Source: a virus
Virus record (IMG/VR): IMGVR_UViG_3300010354_000163
Span: 1-44,423 of that record
Length of the DNA stretch: 44,423 nucleotides
Reading direction: 5' to 3' (one strand)
Under the pieces are notes generated by a model that worked only from the letters and a program-made list of their open reading frames with translations, searched no databases and was not told the DNA's origin. The position numbers and the translations under genes are program-made. This document shows, in pieces, positions 7,829-28,062 of the stretch. The stretch's first letter is position 1. Every line of letters begins with the position of its first letter.

Positions 7829-8064
7829 TGCCCATCCATGAGGCGGGCCATGATTGCGGCCGGGTGGCGCGCATGGCAGAACTCAACCGCCTGGGTGCCG
7901 CTGGTGGCCCGCACACAGCTGTGCATCGGGGCCTGGCCTCGGATGCGCACTTCGACCCAGTAGAAGCCCGCGCTGGGGTCTTCGGTGTAAGTGATGCCTT
8001 CACCGCCGTGGGCTGGTTCATCGTGGCTCTCTCGCCACACTTGCGTCGGGACTGCTTGTGTCAT
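7825..8064 (-). CDS. Hypothetical protein upstream of thyX
   Basis: A 79-residue protein starting MTQAVPTQVWRESHDEPAHG. A middle strand-rich portion (GFYWVEVRIRGQAPMHSC) is followed by EFCHARHPAAIMARLMDGQ. It is coupled to thyX by ATGA. Its 5' end overlaps the preceding small gene by 47 bp, so one of the two starts may be wrong. Family not recognised. Confidence 0.5.
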   Translation of the reverse strand: MTQAVPTQVWRESHDEPAHGGEGITYTEDPSAGFYWVEVRIRGQAPMHSCVRATSGTQAVEFCHARHPAAIMARLMDGQ

Positions 8065-15325: not shown

Positions 15326-16410
15326 GGCTCCACCTCCCCCGCAGGCAGCGGCAGGGCGGCGGCGGGGAGCCAGTGGGACGCATAGAAGGCATCCACCATG
15401 ACACCGGGGCTGCTATCGACAGGCACCCAGATCATTGTTGATCCCCCTGGTTGGCTGCCTTCAATTGAGTGCAGGCGCCATTGCGGATACCCATCCTCGA
15501 CAGTCAGCAGCCAACACCTCCCCTCCCCATCGCAATCCCCCGCCCCCGGCAGGCGATCTGAAACCGGCACGGGCGTGGGGTGGCGCTGCTCCAGCAGGTC
15601 GGCGGCACGGGTGAGCTTCAACTGCCAACGACGGTAAGAGTTGAGCAGGCTATAGGCACTGGATTCTCTTTTCAGCGCAGCCACCAACTCCGCCACCTCC
15701 CCCTCCGCCGATGGCGCGGGCTGGTGGCCGGCGGTGCCAAGCCGATAGGTTTTGTTGAACAGCTCACGGCCAATCGGATACTCTTCGCCCTGAACACCGC
15801 GCATGATCAGATCATCAGGGCGAACGGGGGTGATCCCCTCCCTGGTGCTCACATGAGTTTCACCGGACCGCTGCTCGCGCACATGCACTGTGATCGGCAG
15901 CTTGACGCATGGCTGCCATTCGGGGCCGATGGCCTCCCCCGCAGCCATCGGCGCGGGCGCATCTTCATCGACCTGCTCGCCAATGACCTGCGCTGCCCAG
16001 GTCAACATCCCGGCGTCGGTTGGTTGGCCCGCATCTGCAGCCTGGCAGGCCTGTTCGGTCAGCCAGGCGATCAGCGGGCCAACCGCCTCGATGGATGGGC
16101 CAGGGGTGACATCAGCCGGTGGCGCGGGCTGGTGGCCCCAGCGGGCCAAGAGGGTGCGGGCTGCATCCTCAAATCCACCTTGATCTATGAACTCACAGCC
16201 ACGACAAAAGTCGTGGTAGATCAAGGCGAGCTCCTCATCAGTTGGCTCCGCAGGGGCCGCCACCGGCTCAGCGGCCAGGGCGGCGCGGGCGTGGGCAAGG
16301 GCGTTGGCTTCTTGATTGCTGAATGGCGTGAAGTCGGCTAGGGCAGACACAAGCTCCGCGCACAGCGCTCTCCAATCGGTCATAGCGGTCTCCGGTGTGG
16401 TGGTGGTCAT
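15322..16410 (-). CDS. Large early protein with C-terminal DUF551-like domain
   Basis: A 362-residue protein starting [20 protein letters not shown]. The N-terminal helical part is followed by two blocks that contain GHQPAP and a DDLIMRG segment. The last 100 residues show the DUF551 outline: PVSDRLPGAGDCDGEGRCWL, a central W, then ASHWLPAAALPLP. DUF551 domains are frequent in phages; their role is unknown. Related short proteins lie at 34072 and 35327. The start overlaps the RTX gene stop (TGATG). The modular build suggests fusion of shorter phage units. Confidence 0.6.
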   Translation of the reverse strand: MTTTTPETAMTDWRALCAELVSALADFTPFSNQEANALAHARAALAAEPVAAPAEPTDEELALIYHDFCRGCEFIDQGGFEDAARTLLARWGHQPAPPADVTPGPSIEAVGPLIAWLTEQACQAADAGQPTDAGMLTWAAQVIGEQVDEDAPAPMAAGEAIGPEWQPCVKLPITVHVREQRSGETHVSTREGITPVRPDDLIMRGVQGEEYPIGRELFNKTYRLGTAGHQPAPSAEGEVAELVAALKRESSAYSLLNSYRRWQLKLTRAADLLEQRHPTPVPVSDRLPGAGDCDGEGRCWLLTVEDGYPQWRLHSIEGSQPGGSTMIWVPVDSSPGVMVDAFYASHWLPAAALPLPAGEVEP

Positions 16411-16931
16411 CAGACGAACGTGACCCAGGTTTGACCAAGCGACTTCAGATCACAGCCATTGACTATGGCCAGTTGATCACCGTCGTGCCAGATTGTCGTG
16501 TTTCCGTTGAAATACGACAGACGATAATTCTTTTGACTCAGGGAGAGCCGAATAAGGTCTCCGCCGGCGCGATTGAAGTCGGCGATGATGTCGCATCCAG
16601 GGTCGCCGGTTGGGCCGACAACAAAGATGTCTGTTCCCGCGCCGCCGACCATGCTGTCGCTGCCGTTGCCGCCGATCAGAGTGTCGTTGCCGTCGCCACC
16701 CAGCAAGGTGTCATTACCCAAGCCGCCATCGAGATAGTCATTGCCGCCGTAGCCGGTCAGCCGGTCATGGCCGCTGCCGCCGCGAATCGTCTCGTTGCCG
16801 GTGCTGCCCTGAACGTAATCATCGCCATCGCCAGCGTCGATGACGTCATCGCCTCCGAGACCGTAGATGGCGTCATTGAAGCGTGTACCAATGATGGCAT
16901 CGGTGGCCAGAGTGCCGTAAATGAGAGCCAT
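16410..16931 (-). CDS. RTX (haemolysin-type) calcium-binding beta-roll protein
   Basis: A 173-residue protein whose residues about 8-105 are nine-residue glycine-aspartate repeats ([38 protein letters not shown]), the calcium-binding beta-roll seen in secreted toxins, proteases and cyanobacterial surface proteins. The C-terminus ([19 protein letters not shown]) is the usual capping stretch. No enzyme domain or signal peptide is present. It is placed in an early-type operon between dnaN-linked genes and the DUF551-like gene, which is unusual. The DNA is more AT-rich than its neighbours, pointing to transfer from a host genome. Confidence 0.8.
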
Positions 16932-16951: not shown

Positions 16952-17134
16952 TTAAATCTTGCCGTCTCCGGCGTGATGCAGTGGCACCGGACGAACACGA
17001 ATCACATCCATCTCTGGGTGCAGCTTTCGCCACAGCCAGCCAGCGGCGTATTCGCTTCGTGCCGTGATCCGGTAGTCGCAGGTGCGGCAGGTGTCTAGGC
17101 GGACCGTGACCCACCAGTCGTGCAGGTCAGCCAC
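16952..17134 (-). CDS. Small hypothetical protein downstream of dnaN
   Basis: A 60-residue protein starting [24 protein letters not shown] and a tryptophan-rich core ([20 protein letters not shown]) suggest a compact strand-helix-strand fold. It overlaps the sliding-clamp stop by 8 bp. Function unknown. Confidence 0.55.
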
Positions 17135-18242
17135 GGACCTGCACCGGCATCACCAGGTACTGGAAGCCCGCCTCGTCCTCGACCGGCTCCAACACCACCG
17201 GCGTGGTGGCGGCATTGGCCTGCAGGACAACCTGACCGGTGCTGATCGCCTTGAGGCCCTCCAGCAGATAGCGGGCGTTGAAGGCGATCGTTTCCGCCTC
17301 GCCCGTGATCACCGCCGCCAGCGACTCGGAACCACGGCCTAGGTCCTGCGCATCGGCGCGGACGGTCACGCGGTCCTCATCGGGGTTGATCGCCAGCTTC
17401 ACAACGTTGTTGTGTGGATCAGCCAGCACCGCGACCCTCTCCAGGGCGGCGATAAGCGCCCGGCGATCGATCACAATGCTGCGCCTGAAGCCGGCGGGGA
17501 TCAGCTGGCGATAGGCGGGATAATTGCCCTCCAGGATCCTGGTGGTGAGCACCCGGTCGCCGCTCGTGATGACGGCCTGACCCTTGTCGGTGAACAGCTG
17601 CAAGGCGTCGCCGTTGCCGCCCAGCAGGCGCTCCAGCTCGCGCAGGGAACGGGCTGGGATCGTCAAGCTCAGGTCGCCGCCTGCGCCCGGGATGGTGAGC
17701 ACCGCCAACCGGTGCCCGTCGGTCGCAGCACACTCCAGCCCGTCGGCGGTCAGGCGGAGATGGACGCCCGTGAGCAGCTGCTTGGCCTCGTCGTTGCTGC
17801 TGGCGAACAGGGTCGAGCGCAGTCCGGCCAGCAGGGCGCCAGCGTCCAGGGTGATCGGCGCGCTGGACTGCTGCAGCGGTAGGTCGGGGTAGTCGCTGGC
17901 CGGTAGGCCCCGCAGCTCGTAGGAGCCGGACAGGCTGGTGATCGTCGCGGCGTGATCGTCGTCGGCCGCCAGGGTGAGCGGCACGCCGTCGGGCAGGCGA
18001 GTCACGATGTCCGCCAGCAAGCGCGCCGGCAGGGTCACGGCGCCACTGGCCTGCACCGCGGCGGGGATGCTGGTCTGGATGCCCAGTGACAGGTCGAAGC
18101 CCGTCAGGCTCAGGCGGCCGGTGGCGGCATCAGCCGTGAGCAGCACGTTGGCCAGTACCGGGTGAGTCGGACGTGATGCCACCGCCCGGCTCACCAGCTG
18201 GAGGCTGGCATTGAGTTCAGATTGAGCGCAGACAAGCTTCAT
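17127..18242 (-). CDS. dnaN: DNA polymerase III beta subunit (sliding clamp)
   Basis: A complete 371-residue DnaN, close to bacterial length. Three clamp domains are visible: N-terminal LQLVSRAVASRPTHPVLANV with LTGFDLSLGIQT, central FASSNDEAKQLLTGVHLRL with CAATDGHRLAV, and C-terminal GNYPAYRQLIP, LAINPDEDRVTV, FNARYLLEGLKAI, ending [12 protein letters not shown], matching the canonical ending YxxMPMRL. It would tether a polymerase to DNA. No polymerase gene is recognised in the window, so it may serve the host polymerase. A 51-bp stretch of its 5' end is repeated exactly at 20422-20472. Confidence 0.9.
   Translation of the reverse strand: MKLVCAQSELNASLQLVSRAVASRPTHPVLANVLLTADAATGRLSLTGFDLSLGIQTSIPAAVQASGAVTLPARLLADIVTRLPDGVPLTLAADDDHAATITSLSGSYELRGLPASDYPDLPLQQSSAPITLDAGALLAGLRSTLFASSNDEAKQLLTGVHLRLTADGLECAATDGHRLAVLTIPGAGGDLSLTIPARSLRELERLLGGNGDALQLFTDKGQAVITSGDRVLTTRILEGNYPAYRQLIPAGFRRSIVIDRRALIAALERVAVLADPHNNVVKLAINPDEDRVTVRADAQDLGRGSESLAAVITGEAETIAFNARYLLEGLKAISTGQVVLQANAATTPVVLEPVEDEAGFQYLVMPVQVRG
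18105..18155. repeat. 51-bp direct repeat, copy 1 (inside dnaN)
   Basis: Identical over 51 bases to 20422-20472, starting CAGGCTCAGGCGGCCGGTGG and ending ACGTTGGCCAG. Both copies encode the same part of the clamp N-terminus (about residues 30-46). Confidence 0.85.
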
Positions 18243-18655
18243 GGGGTGGGGGTAGTGGTGTTGTGGTCATCCTTCCGAAATGGCTGGCCATCAGGCCCGC
18301 GAAATCGGTCATCACTGCCCCAGCCGTTGCGCTGATATTCCATTAGGAACACCAAACAGCAACCGGCATGGGCCGGGTGGCTTAGCCCTGTCTCTTGGTC
18401 GTGGTCTTCACCACTCCACCAGGCGAACAGGTGGCGCAACAAGGCGGCGTAGTACCGGCCCCATCGAGCGCCGCGACACCAGTTGTTGGCGTCGTACTTC
18501 GCTGCCCCGTAGGTGAGCACCTCGGCGATCTGCTTCAGCGCGGCGCTCGGCAACAGCTCTAGGCGGGGCTTGCTGGCGGATTCGGCAGACTTGCGAGCCT
18601 CGCCGGTGGGCTCATCAAAGCCGCCGTGTTGGTGGTCGCGGTTGGGAATGGTCAT
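18239..18655 (-). CDS. dATP/dGTP diphosphohydrolase-like protein
   Basis: A 138-residue protein with the phage dATP/dGTP diphosphohydrolase N-terminal-type domain (I recall PF18909, MazG-like): KPRLELLPSAALKQIAEVLT, YGAAKYDANNW, RYYAALLRHLFAWWSGEDHD, then HAGCCLVFLMEY. Conserved Asp/Glu/His residues in GEDHD and the alpha-helical bundle fit a metal-dependent nucleotide pyrophosphatase. Members hydrolyse deoxynucleoside triphosphates and, in some phages such as S-2L, support modified genomes. No purZ-like gene is seen. It precedes dnaN with a 4-bp overlap. Confidence 0.7.
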   Translation of the reverse strand: MTIPNRDHQHGGFDEPTGEARKSAESASKPRLELLPSAALKQIAEVLTYGAAKYDANNWCRGARWGRYYAALLRHLFAWWSGEDHDQETGLSHPAHAGCCLVFLMEYQRNGWGSDDRFRGPDGQPFRKDDHNTTTPTP

Positions 18656-20034
18656 GCGGCGACCTCCAGGGTCAGGCCGAGCTGTGCGCCGTCCATTCGA
18701 TGTTCGGCCATGGCGAAGTAGGCAGGATCTCGTTCAATGCCGATGGCTTGGAAGCCCTCGCTTACCGCGGCCTTGATGGTGGTGCCGCTGCCCATGAACG
18801 GATCCAGCACCGTGCCGCCTGGTGGTGTGACCAGACGGCACAGGTAGGCCATCAGGTCGAGCGGCTTGATCGTGGGATGGGTGACGCCTTGGCGCTCGGC
18901 TTTGGTGGCCTTGGCGGTGTAGAAGAAGCGGGCGGCGCTGCCGGGGTCGGGGGCGTACTCACCAGTGCGCTCCTTCGGCGCCTTGCCGTAGATGCCGTTT
19001 TCGGCGGTGATGTTGGCCCGGTTCAGTGCCCCGCTGTTCGTCACCGGAAACAACCCCACAACCTCGTCGCTGCCGTCGTGGATCAGGTTGGCGGGCCAGC
19101 GGCCGGCGGGGTGCTCTTCGGTGCGGTCTGCAATGCGATTAACGCCGGCATTACGGTCCATGTGCAGCGGCGACGATGTTTTACGGCCTCCACTGGTTAG
19201 CCCACTAGGTGCCTCCACCCGACACCCATCCACATTGATCGCCCCGGTGCCGTGCTCCAGCACGTTCGCGGCCACGGTGCCGGGGAAGGGCTTGCGGGCC
19301 ATGGTGATCGGCTCCAGGGCGGGCTTTAGAGCCGTGCCCCAGCCGGCCCACTGCTGCGCCTCGGGGGTGGCGGGGGCGGTGATATCCACAACCCCGTCGC
19401 CTCTGGCCGATTCGGCGTACCAGCTGACAGGATCACCTGTTCGCTTCCGCCCAACCACCTCCCGCTCGGCTTTTGCAATCAGGTCGGCGTAATGCTGCAG
19501 CTCCGGCCAGTCGGCGGCCACCATTGCCATCACTTCGGCGGTTGGCATCTGCTGCCCAGCAGGTCTGCCCTCGTACCAAGACCAGAGCGTGACGCCGCCG
19601 CAGTAGGTGCGGTCTGCTTGTGTTGCGGTGATGCCGCGAGCCTTTCGTGCTGCCTTGAGAGCCGCGCCAATCTCAGCGGTTAGGTGCGCGTTGCCGCCCC
19701 GCTTGTCAATCGCTTTGCTCACATCCAGCGACTTCGGGAATCCCGACCCGTACACCCAGGCGATCATGTCCCGGATCTCAAAGCCCGCGTCCTCGATCCG
19801 CACGGCCATCCGGTGTTGCGTCCTGGTGCCAGCGAACGCCAGCAGGTGCCCCCCGGGCTTCAGGACGCGCAGGCACTCGGCCCAGACCTCCGCGCTCGGC
19901 ACGTCGTAATCCCACCGCTTGCCCATGAAGGCCAGGCCGTAAGGCGGATCGGTCACCACGGCATCCACGCTGCAATCGGGCATGGTGCGCAGCACGTCCA
20001 GGCAGTCGCCGTGGTGCAGGGTGTGGGTCGTCAT
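18652..20034 (-). CDS. DNA methyltransferase (N6-A/N4-C, type with DPPY first) carrying an inserted HTH
   Basis: A 460-residue SAM-dependent MTase that probably methylates adenine or cytosine in DNA. Motif IV DPPYGLAFMGKRW (about residue 27) comes before HPTIKPLDLMAYL, DPFMGSGTT and AIGIERD, the order of the beta group. Central stretches AITAPATPEAQQW-like, GTVAANVLEHGTGAINVDGC and GRWPANLIHDGSDEVV recur in phage MTases. Where related proteins usually read AIDKAAGAER, about 70 residues are inserted, including IGAALKAARKARGITATQAD with an XRE-like helix-turn-helix and LQHYADLIAKAEREVVG. Start ATG 20032-20034 overlaps the preceding stop. Confidence 0.85.
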   Translation of the reverse strand: MTTHTLHHGDCLDVLRTMPDCSVDAVVTDPPYGLAFMGKRWDYDVPSAEVWAECLRVLKPGGHLLAFAGTRTQHRMAVRIEDAGFEIRDMIAWVYGSGFPKSLDVSKAIDKRGGNAHLTAEIGAALKAARKARGITATQADRTYCGGVTLWSWYEGRPAGQQMPTAEVMAMVAADWPELQHYADLIAKAEREVVGRKRTGDPVSWYAESARGDGVVDITAPATPEAQQWAGWGTALKPALEPITMARKPFPGTVAANVLEHGTGAINVDGCRVEAPSGLTSGGRKTSSPLHMDRNAGVNRIADRTEEHPAGRWPANLIHDGSDEVVGLFPVTNSGALNRANITAENGIYGKAPKERTGEYAPDPGSAARFFYTAKATKAERQGVTHPTIKPLDLMAYLCRLVTPPGGTVLDPFMGSGTTIKAAVSEGFQAIGIERDPAYFAMAEHRMDGAQLGLTLEVAA

Positions 20035-20384
20035 GCCACCACCTCCAGCCCATGCACCTGATACGCACCCCAGCCGGAACTCAGGTCCACCAGGCCAGCA
20101 GCGGCCACGGCTGACAGGCGGCGGCTCACCTGTGGCTGGCTGCAGCGCCACTGATCGCGCAGCTCTTGGGTGGGCACGACGCCTGGCGTGGGGGGCAGGG
20201 TGACTAGGGTCAGGTAGTCGAGCAAGGCTTGATCGCTGTGCTGCTGGCGCAGCTCCAGTAGCGGGCGGATGCGGATGATCATGCGATTGGTGGGCGCCAG
20301 CGCAAACGGCGGATTGCTCAGGAATTGCCCGCTGCCGGCGGCGGGCTCGTAGGTGGTGGGTGGGTACCAGGTGTCAGCGCCCAT
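20031..20384 (-). CDS. Winged-helix protein with a collapsed methyltransferase remnant at its N-terminus
   Basis: A 117-residue protein. Residues about 35-117 form a winged helix (LRDQWRCSQPQVSRRLSAVA then GLVDLSSGWGAYQV), paralogous to 27742-28062. Residues 8-30 read WYPPTTYEPAAGSGQF directly followed by LSNPPFALAP: an MTase SAM motif (EPxAGSG) joined to a catalytic NPPF motif with almost nothing between them. The ATG at 20382-20384 overlaps the stop of an SSB tail remnant (TGATG), so the long start is the ancestral one; ATG 20280-20282 could give only the winged helix. Confidence 0.65.
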   Translation of the reverse strand: MGADTWYPPTTYEPAAGSGQFLSNPPFALAPTNRMIIRIRPLLELRQQHSDQALLDYLTLVTLPPTPGVVPTQELRDQWRCSQPQVSRRLSAVAAAGLVDLSSGWGAYQVHGLEVVA

Positions 20385-20559
20385 CAGAACGGCACTTCAT
20401 CGGAATCCCAAGCGCTGGCGGCAGGCTCAGGCGGCCGGTGGCGGCATCAGCCGTGAGCAGCACGTTGGCCAGGACCGGATGAGTGGGGCGACCGCTGACC
20501 GCTCGGCTGACGAGCTGCAGGGCCGACGAGAGGTCGGCCTGGGAGGTGGTGAGTTGCAT
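20374..20559 (-). pseudogene. dnaN: Truncated dnaN joined to the end of a second ssb
   Basis: From ATG 20557-20559 the frame reads LQLVSRAV then RPTHPVLANVLLTADAATGR up to LSL, matching the first 46 residues of the full dnaN (17127-18242). It then continues out of register (PPALGIPMKCRSDGR). In the next frame the same bases encode PAASAWDSDEVPF-stop, an SSB-type acidic tip like the SDEEVPF end of the intact ssb. The joint is near 20421. Both ends keep TGATG overlaps with their neighbours. The 61-residue product lacks most of clamp domain I and is probably inert. Confidence 0.8.
20422..20472. repeat. 51-bp direct repeat, copy 2 (inside truncated dnaN)
   Basis: Exact copy of 18105-18155 in the same orientation, about 2.3 kb away. 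The two copies bracket the diphosphohydrolase, MTase and winged-helix genes, so homologous recombination between them could delete that block. Confidence 0.85.
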
Positions 20560-21032
20560 CAGAAGGGCACCTCTTCGTCGCTGAAGCCATCGGAGCCAGC
20601 GGTGGCCGGGTTGCTCTGCCAGGTAGGCGCTGCGGTTGCGGAACCGGAGCTGGCAGGGGCAGCAGTTGCCGCAGGCTGCCCGGCTTGACGCAGCACGCGC
20701 CACGTCTCGGATTTGATCACCAGCGCCACCTTCGGCTCGCCGTCGCGGGCGGTGTAGCGCTCGGTCTTGATGCGACCGATCACCTCCACCAAGTCGCCGC
20801 GGTGGGCGCCGTTGGCGAAGGCCTCGCCGTCTTCGTTCCACAGCTCAATCTTGAACCAGTTGGTCTTGTCCTTTTCGTCCTTCTTTGCGTCCGGGTGGCT
20901 GATCGCCATGCGGGCATTGCAGACCAGGCTCCCGGACTGGAAGCTGCGGATCTCAGGATCAGCGCCAAGCCGCCCGACAAACCGGTGGGACTCGGCGCGG
21001 GCCACGGTGGCCAGGATTTCGGTTGCGTTCAT
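20559..21032 (-). CDS. ssb: Single-stranded DNA-binding protein
   Basis: A 157-residue SSB. The OB-fold lies in residues about 15-118: HRFVGRLGADPEIRSFQSGS, NWFKIELWNEDGE, HRGDLVEVIGRIKTERY and WRVLR. A Gly/Ala/Ser/Thr-rich linker follows, ending in the acidic tip SDEEVPF that recruits partner proteins. It protects ssDNA during replication and recombination. It follows the RecT-like gene with a 4-bp overlap, and its stop overlaps the truncated dnaN start. A second ssb tail is preserved at about 20382-20421. Confidence 0.9.
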   Translation of the reverse strand: MNATEILATVARAESHRFVGRLGADPEIRSFQSGSLVCNARMAISHPDAKKDEKDKTNWFKIELWNEDGEAFANGAHRGDLVEVIGRIKTERYTARDGEPKVALVIKSETWRVLRQAGQPAATAAPASSGSATAAPTWQSNPATAGSDGFSDEEVPF

Positions 21033-21955
21033 TGCGGGGTGTCGGTGGGGTCGGTGTCGCTCCAGGTGGCCGGAGCCTCGTCGTCAACGGCGACGGTGAG
21101 CGCCTCGCCAGCGGCGTTGCAGCGTTCGGCGGTCTGCGGGCTGACGCCGGACTTCGCCAGGCGGGCGAGGATGTTCAGCGGCAGGGCCTCCAGGGTGGTG
21201 GCCTCGCCGTTGCTCAGCTCCTGGCATAGGGCCAGGATTCCGTCCGGGGTCATCCCCCGGGCCTCGCAGGCGCGGCGGGCACCGGCGGCCAGCTCCTCAG
21301 GGGTGCTCAGCGTGCGCTGCGGGGTGCGGTGGGGCGGCAGCTCTTCGGCAATGGTGGCGACGACCACGCCGTTCTCATCGATCTGCCCTTGGGCGCCCAG
21401 CTCCTCCGGGGTGTAGGCGCCCATGCCGCCGAGAGCGTCGGGGCAATGGGTGCGCATCCCGGCGGTGAGGCAGCGGGCGAACAGCATCGCTTCGGGGTAC
21501 TGCGCCCACGGGCCGGAGCTTTTGACCAGGCCGGCGCGCTTGGCCATCTCCATCGTGAAGGTTTCGATGCCGAGCTCTTCGCGGCCGGCGAGGAACCGGA
21601 TGCGGCAAATGGTGTCGGTCTTCTCTAGGACGCGGTAGTCGTAGAGCGGGTGACGCTTGATGGCTTGGGCCAGGAGGTTCGCGCCGAAACCCGGCTTGCC
21701 GTTGATGACCGTGACGCCAGAGTGGCTGGCGAACGGCCCGAAGCCGGCCTCAGCACCGGCGAGAATTTTGATCGCGCATTCGGCCATGTGCTGCTCGGCG
21801 TTGCCCGAGCGGCCGAACAGACCGGAGGCGCTGAACAACTTGGCGAGGCGCTGCAGGTCTTCGATGCCGGAGAGCTGCAGGCTGAAGCTGGCGCCAGGCT
21901 GCGGGGCAAGGCTGCTGCCGTTGGCGAGAGCGAGTGCGCCGGTTGGCGGGCTCAT
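21029..21955 (-). CDS. RecT-like single-strand annealing protein
   Basis: A 308-residue protein. After a variable start, LQRLAKLFSASGLFGRSG and AIKILAGAEAGFGPFASHS lead to GVTVINGKPGFGANLLAQAI and the diagnostic YPEAMLFARCLTAGMRTHCP near DALGGMGAYTPEE, a pattern of phage RecT-family annealing proteins. It would anneal complementary strands in recombination with the adjacent SSB. The frame is open to ATGs at 21980-21985, but those overlap a TATGAT -10-like hexamer, so the ATG at 21953-21955 is preferred. No separate RecE-like exonuclease lies beside it. Confidence 0.7.
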   Translation of the reverse strand: MSPPTGALALANGSSLAPQPGASFSLQLSGIEDLQRLAKLFSASGLFGRSGNAEQHMAECAIKILAGAEAGFGPFASHSGVTVINGKPGFGANLLAQAIKRHPLYDYRVLEKTDTICRIRFLAGREELGIETFTMEMAKRAGLVKSSGPWAQYPEAMLFARCLTAGMRTHCPDALGGMGAYTPEELGAQGQIDENGVVVATIAEELPPHRTPQRTLSTPEELAAGARRACEARGMTPDGILALCQELSNGEATTLEALPLNILARLAKSGVSPQTAERCNAAGEALTVAVDDEAPATWSDTDPTDTPQ

Positions 21956-21980
21956 GGTGGTGGGGTGCGGTGGCTCTGGC

Positions 21981-21986
21981 ATCATA
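21981..21986 (-). promoter_or_regulatory. Candidate -10 hexamer TATGAT
   Basis: On the minus strand CTGCGGTATGATGCC holds TATGAT (5 of 6 match to TATAAT), about 25 bp before ATG 21955. No convincing -35 at 17 bp. Placed to start the recT-ssb-dnaN unit. Confidence 0.35.
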
Positions 21987-27572: not shown

Positions 27573-27745
27573 AGCCGGGCCTCCAGGTTGACGGTGTAGG
27601 TGCAGCTCTCGCGGCCGCGGGGCATCTGGCACTCGACGTCCAGTCGATCAACCCGCAGGCCGGTGGCGTCGGTGAAGTCCTGCAGGGCCTGGGCGATGAC
27701 GGATTCGGCGGCCTGCTTGGCGGAGCGGGCGGTTTTGAGGTTCAT
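27569..27745 (-). CDS. Small hypothetical protein (58 aa)
   Basis: Starts MNLKTARSAKQAAESVIAQA and ends CTYTVNLEARL. The helix-rich first half and strand-like second half suggest a small alpha/beta protein. Both ends overlap their neighbours (ATGA at 27742-27745 and GTGA at 27569-27572), which strongly supports it as a true gene. Function unknown. Confidence 0.6.
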   Translation of the reverse strand: MNLKTARSAKQAAESVIAQALQDFTDATGLRVDRLDVECQMPRGRESCTYTVNLEARL

Positions 27746-28062
27746 CCCACCACCTCCCGCAGCTGCTGCCGCACTGTCTCCCAGCGCTCGCGGCTGGTGG
27801 TCTGCGCTGGCTTCTCGGGTCTCGGCTGGATCAGCGTGTAGCGGCCCCAGCCGGAGCGGATTCGATACAGACCCAGGCCATCAATCGCCGTCATCCGGCG
27901 GCTGACTTGCGACTGGCTGCAGCCCCATAGGGCCTTGAGCAGCGCCACGGATGCGACGCCCGGGGCGATGCCCAGCTGCTCAAGGTGCAGTAGGTCCAGG
28001 ATCGCCCGGTCGGCCTTGACGGTGCCGTTGCGGTGGGTGTGGATGTTGAGGGTGGGTCTCAT
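27742..28062 (-). CDS. Winged-helix DNA-binding protein, paralogue of 20031-20384
   Basis: A 106-residue protein. Residues about 18-82 match the winged helix of 20031-20384: LLKALWGCSQSQVSRRMTAI then GLYRIRSGWGRYTL (shared pattern W-CSQ-QVSRR ... SGWG-Y). The C-terminal 25 residues (TTSRERWETVRQQLREVV) are extra. It follows the short MTase gene with a 4-bp overlap, the same order as the fusion at 20031. Probably a transcriptional regulator or accessory of the MTase. Confidence 0.7.
   Translation of the reverse strand: MRPTLNIHTHRNGTVKADRAILDLLHLEQLGIAPGVASVALLKALWGCSQSQVSRRMTAIDGLGLYRIRSGWGRYTLIQPRPEKPAQTTSRERWETVRQQLREVVG

Follow-up and report, generated by a model that had tools for sequence, protein, structure and literature searches.

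Our analyses indicate that the window, by which we mean the whole 44,423-base stretch analysed here (IMG/VR virus record IMGVR_UViG_3300010354_000163, positions 1 to 44,423), carries a dnaN stub that very probably represents the first part of the phage's original dnaN, severed when a segment from a related phage was inserted. As far as can be told from the DNA, this is a real, well-resolved mosaic joint of a known kind. The event is ordinary phage mosaicism, unusually legible, almost base by base, and one step of that process can be followed: the bases can be assigned to their parents, and the points at which the exchange passed from one parent to the other can be located.

The genes of the locus lie on the minus strand in the order recT, ssb, a fused ORF of 61 codons, a leader joined to a winged-helix (wHTH) protein, a methyltransferase (MTase), a dATP/dGTP diphosphohydrolase-like gene and dnaN. 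The recT gene (21029-21985) encodes a RecT-like single-strand annealing protein (phrog_561, E 2.5e-40), and the intact ssb (20559-21032; Pfam SSB, E 2.3e-17) ends in the tip SDEEVPF. Beyond the fused ORF are the leader-wHTH gene (20031-20384), the DNA methyltransferase of N6/N4 type (18652-20034; Pfam N6_N4_Mtase, E 4.7e-30), the diphosphohydrolase-like gene (18239-18655; Pfam dGTP_diPhyd_N, E 2.1e-32; 82% to G017) and an intact dnaN of 371 aa (17127-18242) with all three Pfam DNA_pol3_beta domains. The short gene g17 (16952-17134) follows dnaN, and its homologues also lie 3' of dnaN, 0.2 to 1.3 kb downstream, in the relatives L004-L007. Near dnaN, the minus strand at 16410-16931 encodes a short RTX-like glycine/aspartate repeat protein; a similar-looking RTX-like repeat protein lies at 61357-61785 of G001, elsewhere in the contig that carries L004.

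The fused ORF and its joint

The fused ORF opens with an ATG at 20559 and stops at 20376-20374. Its first 46 codons (20422-20559) are those of a dnaN, in frame from 20559 as the earlier note had proposed: 35 of the 46 residues (76%) are identical to the full DnaN of the window, identity to the DnaN N-terminus of L004 is 89% at the amino acid level, and the 46 residues alone match Pfam DNA_pol3_beta (E 1.2e-6). The whole 61-residue product matches phrog_947, DNA polymerase processivity factor (E 8.1e-6). The dnaN-identical bases end at 20422 and the register changes at 20421. The next frame, 20419-20384, spells ASAWDSDEVPF and a stop, the last 11 codons and stop of a second ssb (ssb''), whose tail occupies 20384-20421. 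The earlier note had read a switch at about 20421 into a second SSB tip, DSDEVPF, and this reading was borne out, since 22 of the last 24 nt of ssb'' are the same as in L058, at the end of its ssb. The agreement with the window's own ssb end is 16/24 (the comparison listed only ends with 14 or more matches), so that ssb'' is an ssb tail and no copy of the phage's own ssb. The couplings described at both edges are likewise present: the intact ssb stop overlaps the stub ATG as TGATG at 20561-20557, and the ssb'' stop overlaps the ATG of the wHTH gene as TGATG at 20386-20382, with the fused ORF overlapping the wHTH start by 11 nt.

In tblastn searches with the stub and the first 60 residues of DnaN, a dnaN piece restricted to the N-terminus was found only in the window (L001) among 197 loci, a set with overlapping loci, near-duplicates and many loci in which the ssb-dnaN region is not covered. 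The exact 26-base joint sequence was found in no other viral contig (viral_contigs search), and the region gave no blastn match to named phages. With SSB as a single-protein query, 13 stretches fit the pattern and none was confirmed.

Parentage of the dnaN parts

Identity between the stub and the window's dnaN is uneven, a detail that the earlier note lacks: it is 61% (54/89) over nt 1-89 and then 100% across the exactly 51 bp that end at the joint. Two gene copies diverging uniformly would not show such an abrupt rise. The identical stretch is a direct repeat, R, that matches at 51 of 51 positions between its left copy (20422-20472) and its right copy (18105-18155). The stub consists of X1 (20473-20559) followed by R, and the intact dnaN has the structure X2-R-Y, X2 being its first 87 nt (18156-18242). 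The identity of R is no proof of a recent event, since gene conversion could keep the copies identical.

A DnaN protein search returned 21 relatives. Among them, L004 lies on a 66-kb contig that keeps synteny with the window to either side of the locus (helicase 93%, recT 87%, or 84% in a separate comparison, dnaN 83%). Against L004, the window's dnaN matches at 56/87 positions (64%) over its first 87 nt and at 805/972 (83%) over the rest (Fisher 8e-5), a sharp change of affinity at the breakpoint. The resulting difference between 5' end and rest, -18.5 points, is the most extreme of 152 pairs (mean +4.2, sd 5.5), which were drawn from 16 of the 21 relatives together with the window gene and a stub-body construct. 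The window with L005 ranks second. When the stub's 5' end was swapped in, the match to L004 rose to 69/87 (79%) and the difference shrank to -3.5. Third-position GC (GC3) also sets X2 (18/29) apart from the dnaN body (289/326, p 5e-4), and its value is the lowest for the first 87 nt among the window gene and 14 relatives; the comparison of X2 with the first 87 nt of the stub (24/29) is not significant (p 0.14). X2 is short, and its best matches among those compared, L006 (65/87) and L007 (64/87), identify no donor.

Because of the contrast in similarity to L004 and the GC3 values, we read the stub as the original start of the gene, the dnaN body as the original body and the foreign part as extending to about codon 29. 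The stub and the intact dnaN body thus most likely come from an L004-like parent, with X2 foreign. The earlier note had assigned the whole intact dnaN to a second parent, which is most likely wrong, as the foreign-looking part is confined to roughly the first 87 nt and the body is L004-like. For the same reason, the proposed joining of two related genomes holds as a recombination joint, which is strongly supported, and gives way as an end-to-end fusion to the insertion of a 2,266-bp segment (18156-20421) within one parent's DNA. The window would then read X1-R-[ssb'' tail, wHTH, MTase, dGTPase-like gene, X2]-R-Y, the bracketed segment being the donor's and including the leader with the wHTH gene. 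Its right border lies at dnaN homology, in register, with the 51-bp repeat, while its left border joins R to the ssb'' tail. When X1-R-Y is put back together, it gives an open 371-codon dnaN that is identical to L004 at 311 of 372 aligned positions, compared with 308 for the present gene.

The arrangement most likely arose as follows. The recipient would have had recT-ssb-dnaN in direct succession, with its dnaN as X1-R-Y. This parental order, read by the earlier note from the window alone, exists unbroken in L004, where ssb and dnaN overlap by TGATG. The donor would have carried ssb''-[leader]wHTH-MTase-diphosphohydrolase-dnaN, a full order that we infer. With both genomes in one cell, two switches between recipient and donor suffice. 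At the left switch, recipient dnaN would pass after nt 138 into the donor ssb'' tail, with no homology visible; at the right switch, donor dnaN would pass after about nt 87 into recipient dnaN, in register at homology. The recipient breakpoints lie 51 bp apart and R is therefore present twice. Beside the locus the phage encodes, judging by sequence, an annealing recombinase, the recT product described above, and it may have annealed donor and recipient DNA at the right joint. RecT-type annealing proteins are reported to recombine short, diverged homologies in phage, and the minimum homology given for Red-beta is 30 bp (PMC3945230). The left joint would be illegitimate, and it may have persisted because it did no damage to ssb and preserved translation coupling. 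Exchange between the two R copies beside recT is predicted to remove the cargo and to leave a whole ssb-dnaN operon with a 371-codon dnaN, and cargo gain and loss thus become testable in one locus.

Other origins of the stub were weighed against this insertion. It is improbable that an assembler joined two co-occurring phage strains at dnaN and ssb, so that the stub exists in no real genome. The contig is a metagenomic one from IMG/VR, an exact 51-bp repeat stands at both joints, assemblers err at repeats, and the 26-base joint recurs in no other viral contig. R, however, accounts only for the join of dnaN to dnaN, whereas the left joint ties R to an ssb tail. In all 20 relatives in which the start is covered, dnaN reads on as dnaN, so that a shared k-mer for the dnaN-ssb join is not in sight. 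The joint contains zero N, and the stub's neighbours have open frames. A repeat of 51 bp is also shorter than common read lengths. We give still less credence to a tandem duplication in which the first of two dnaN genes decayed to a stub and other genes were inserted between them. Two dnaN starts do lie close together on one strand, and the 51-bp identity could be the remnant of duplication or conversion, but the step from 61% over 89 nt to 100% over 51 bp has a sharp edge, it is X2 that is atypical while the stub is L004-like, and a second dnaN start occurs in none of the 21 relatives from the DnaN search, within the stretches covered.

Slightly less probable again is a working role for the 61-codon fused ORF, whether as a gene or as a translational leader required between ssb and the wHTH gene. 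Its frame is open, and with TGATG overlaps at its start and shortly ahead of its stop, translation could continue from ssb into wHTH. The earlier note had named conservation of the fused ORF among relatives as evidence against a scar; within this sample the ORF occurs in no relative compared (197 loci, many not covering the region). Moreover, ssb sequence read in a foreign frame makes up most of its last 15 codons, and at 6.6 it has the lowest coding score among minus-strand genes from 16.9 to 24.9 kb (others 13.5-158), on a scale that grows with length. The stub is probably not a used gene, judged from these features and its short length, and ribosomes may still be handed on through it from ssb to the wHTH gene. 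Least credible of all is the insertion of a transposon-like or homing element that duplicated 51 bp of target site. A 2,266-bp segment between 51-bp direct repeats inside a gene has that outline, yet on the right it ends in a dnaN start that is in exact register with R and on the left in an ssb tail, and profile searches gave no transposase, integrase or homing endonuclease match among its three genes. A target-site duplication of 51 bp would also be far longer than usual. Tandem duplication, a functional stub and target-site duplication were rejected, and the insertion of a related phage's segment into the phage's own dnaN is the reading that we carry forward.

The ssb-dnaN interval and a portable leader peptide

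Within the stretches covered, ssb lies upstream of dnaN in 14 of the 21 dnaN relatives, some of these contigs being near-duplicates. The two genes are adjacent in two (overlapping in L004, 8 nt apart in L005) and about 0.46 to 4.9 kb apart in the other 12, which marks out the interval behind ssb as a cargo slot for the group. The second parental order proposed in the earlier note, ssb-wHTH-MTase-diphosphohydrolase-dnaN, was recovered in part: L026 has recT-ssb-short ORF-leader ORF-wHTH-MTase, with no dnaN nearby and no match to dnaN or the diphosphohydrolase in its stretch. In L181, ssb and a leader ORF are separated by a sigma-factor-like gene and one further ORF, and wHTH follows the leader ORF; in L121, L124 and L126, alike enough to be probably near-duplicates, ssb is followed by a partial MTase and then the diphosphohydrolase. 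No single donor with ssb''-wHTH-MTase-diphosphohydrolase-dnaN in order was found among the relatives compared.

Upstream of dnaN in L020 (5886-6010, plus strand), a methyltransferase-like N-terminus (TWYPPTALIDQLLPTTYHPSAGTGGSLL) runs directly into the dnaN start in another frame; it is possibly another stub at the same slot. In several of 14 dnaN genes (L004-L020), runs like CCACCACC, with no GGAGG-type site, stand just 5' of the ATG.

The locus also led to a leader peptide, which is the more unusual thing. The wHTH gene has a 34-residue N-terminal extension (20283-20384, minus strand; residues 1-34, TWYPPTTYEPAAGSGQFLSNPPFA), and its homologues in L178 and L181 begin at the window's Met35, in a comparison that excluded L025 and L195. 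The wHTH part (residues 35-117) matches the FadR-family PDB chain 8pqm (E 1.1e-4) and has no match in Pfam or PHROGs profile searches. In a structure model of the leader-wHTH protein (mean pLDDT 67.5), values above 70 begin only near residue 50, and the leader scores mostly below 50. A second wHTH protein, encoded at 27742-28062 of the window (minus strand), is related to this one (38% in alignment).

The leader comprises about 24 residues, WYPPTTYEPAAGTGxLLxNPPFA, and stands in frame with nine unrelated short proteins in eleven contigs. Using a pattern search, its core WYPPTTYEPAAGSGQFLSNPPFA was found in ten further viral contigs, with loci among L108-L117, L026 and L058. A variant occurs in L027, again before DUF3310-like sequence, and G010 has a divergent one. 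Counting the window, there are eleven strict cases, and in these the leader is in frame to a Met 1-7 residues after NPPFA. The bodies behind it form nine groups, one of them a family (DLIETACHN) shared by three contigs; no other body pair matched at E 0.01 when the G010 variant was included in the comparison, and one leader-borne body is DUF3310. The flanks of the leader are unrelated, with mean identities of 0.32 upstream and 0.29 downstream over 55 pairs. Differences within the leader are mostly synonymous (pN/pS 0.23 for 11 cores, 0.20 for 9 full leaders); those among the 9 full leaders fall 62, 46 and 300 times on the three codon positions, in pair counts that are not independent. Pfam gave no match for ten leader ORFs and the window's, and PHROGs none for the window's, which was the only one searched there. 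The leader pattern had no occurrence in genome_contigs (bacteria, archaea), and tblastn at E 1 gave no match to named phages, a search for which the 26-aa query is weak.

Leader ORFs follow ssb and a short ORF in L026 (= G007), L058 (= G008), G014 and G015. A wHTH-like gene comes directly after the leader ORF in G001, G007 and G013, and one gene later in G008 and G017, so in about half of the cases overall. The motifs of the leader stand in the order of an adenine methyltransferase N-terminus, motif I and motif IV, which is also that of full methyltransferases in the same group (DFYPTPPEVA...EPSAGSG...NPPFS); this likeness may reflect descent with internal deletions, or chance. A tentative reading, which we hold to be possible though not the likelier one, is that the leader, translated and conserved as a peptide, is an N-terminal tag on a cassette slot that often lies behind ssb and varies in content, perhaps an anti-defence slot by analogy with acr-aca operons, and that the scar records one cassette exchange. 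The function of the tag and the anti-defence role of the slot are speculation.

We also tested whether the group generally conserves the beginnings of its genes and exchanges what follows, and such a rule is unsupported. The raw counts were 74 ORF pairs sharing the N-terminus only and 30 sharing the C-terminus only; leader pairs account for 43 of the 74, and without them the counts are 31 and 30.

By eye, a second gene start common to different bodies was seen: the start of the diphosphohydrolase-like gene, IPNRDHQHGG (window 18655-18620, minus strand), opens a different ORF in L026 (about 7947-7985, plus strand). Elsewhere in the window, the ORFs at 40008-40778 and 40808-41647 (minus strand) have a common N-terminus (MARTYxRDSKGRFASGG, 47% over 127 aa) and then differ.

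Host and comparison with known systems

By RecT, the best match among named phages is Synechococcus phage S-LBS1 (MG271909), with 57% over 87% of RecT, and the host is therefore likely a cyanobacterium, as judged from this similarity. S-LBS1 comes from Lake Bourget (PMC6157547). Like the window, it has the order recT-ssb, with a VRR-NUC gene and a helicase upstream; unlike the window, its record has no DnaN match (E 1e-8), none annotated in 17.6 kb, and no stub. An alignment of RecT searched against genome_contigs (bacteria, archaea) gave 49 stretches that fit the pattern, of which one was confirmed, at 36%, in an Acidimicrobiia MAG; this single match names no prophage or host.

Our searches of the literature for gene remnants or fragments, and for leader sequences joined to unrelated proteins, returned nothing relevant. 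Illegitimate-recombination joints and gene remnants in phages were reportedly described by Hendrix et al. in 1999. The window resembles joints of that type in having a truncated gene piece at a module border and intact neighbouring genes at the joint. It differs in that the truncated gene survives whole, as a mosaic, 2.3 kb away, together with a 51-bp exact repeat.

A further comparison is offered by phage genome mosaicism through recombinase-driven, relaxed homologous recombination (De Paepe et al. 2014, PMC3945230). In the window, only the right border lies at clear homology and the left one joins dnaN to an ssb tail, and a role of this RecT at the joint is putative, points on which the two cases differ. 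Both show exchange of a segment between related phages, a border with sequence identity and an adjoining gene for a RecT-like annealing protein.
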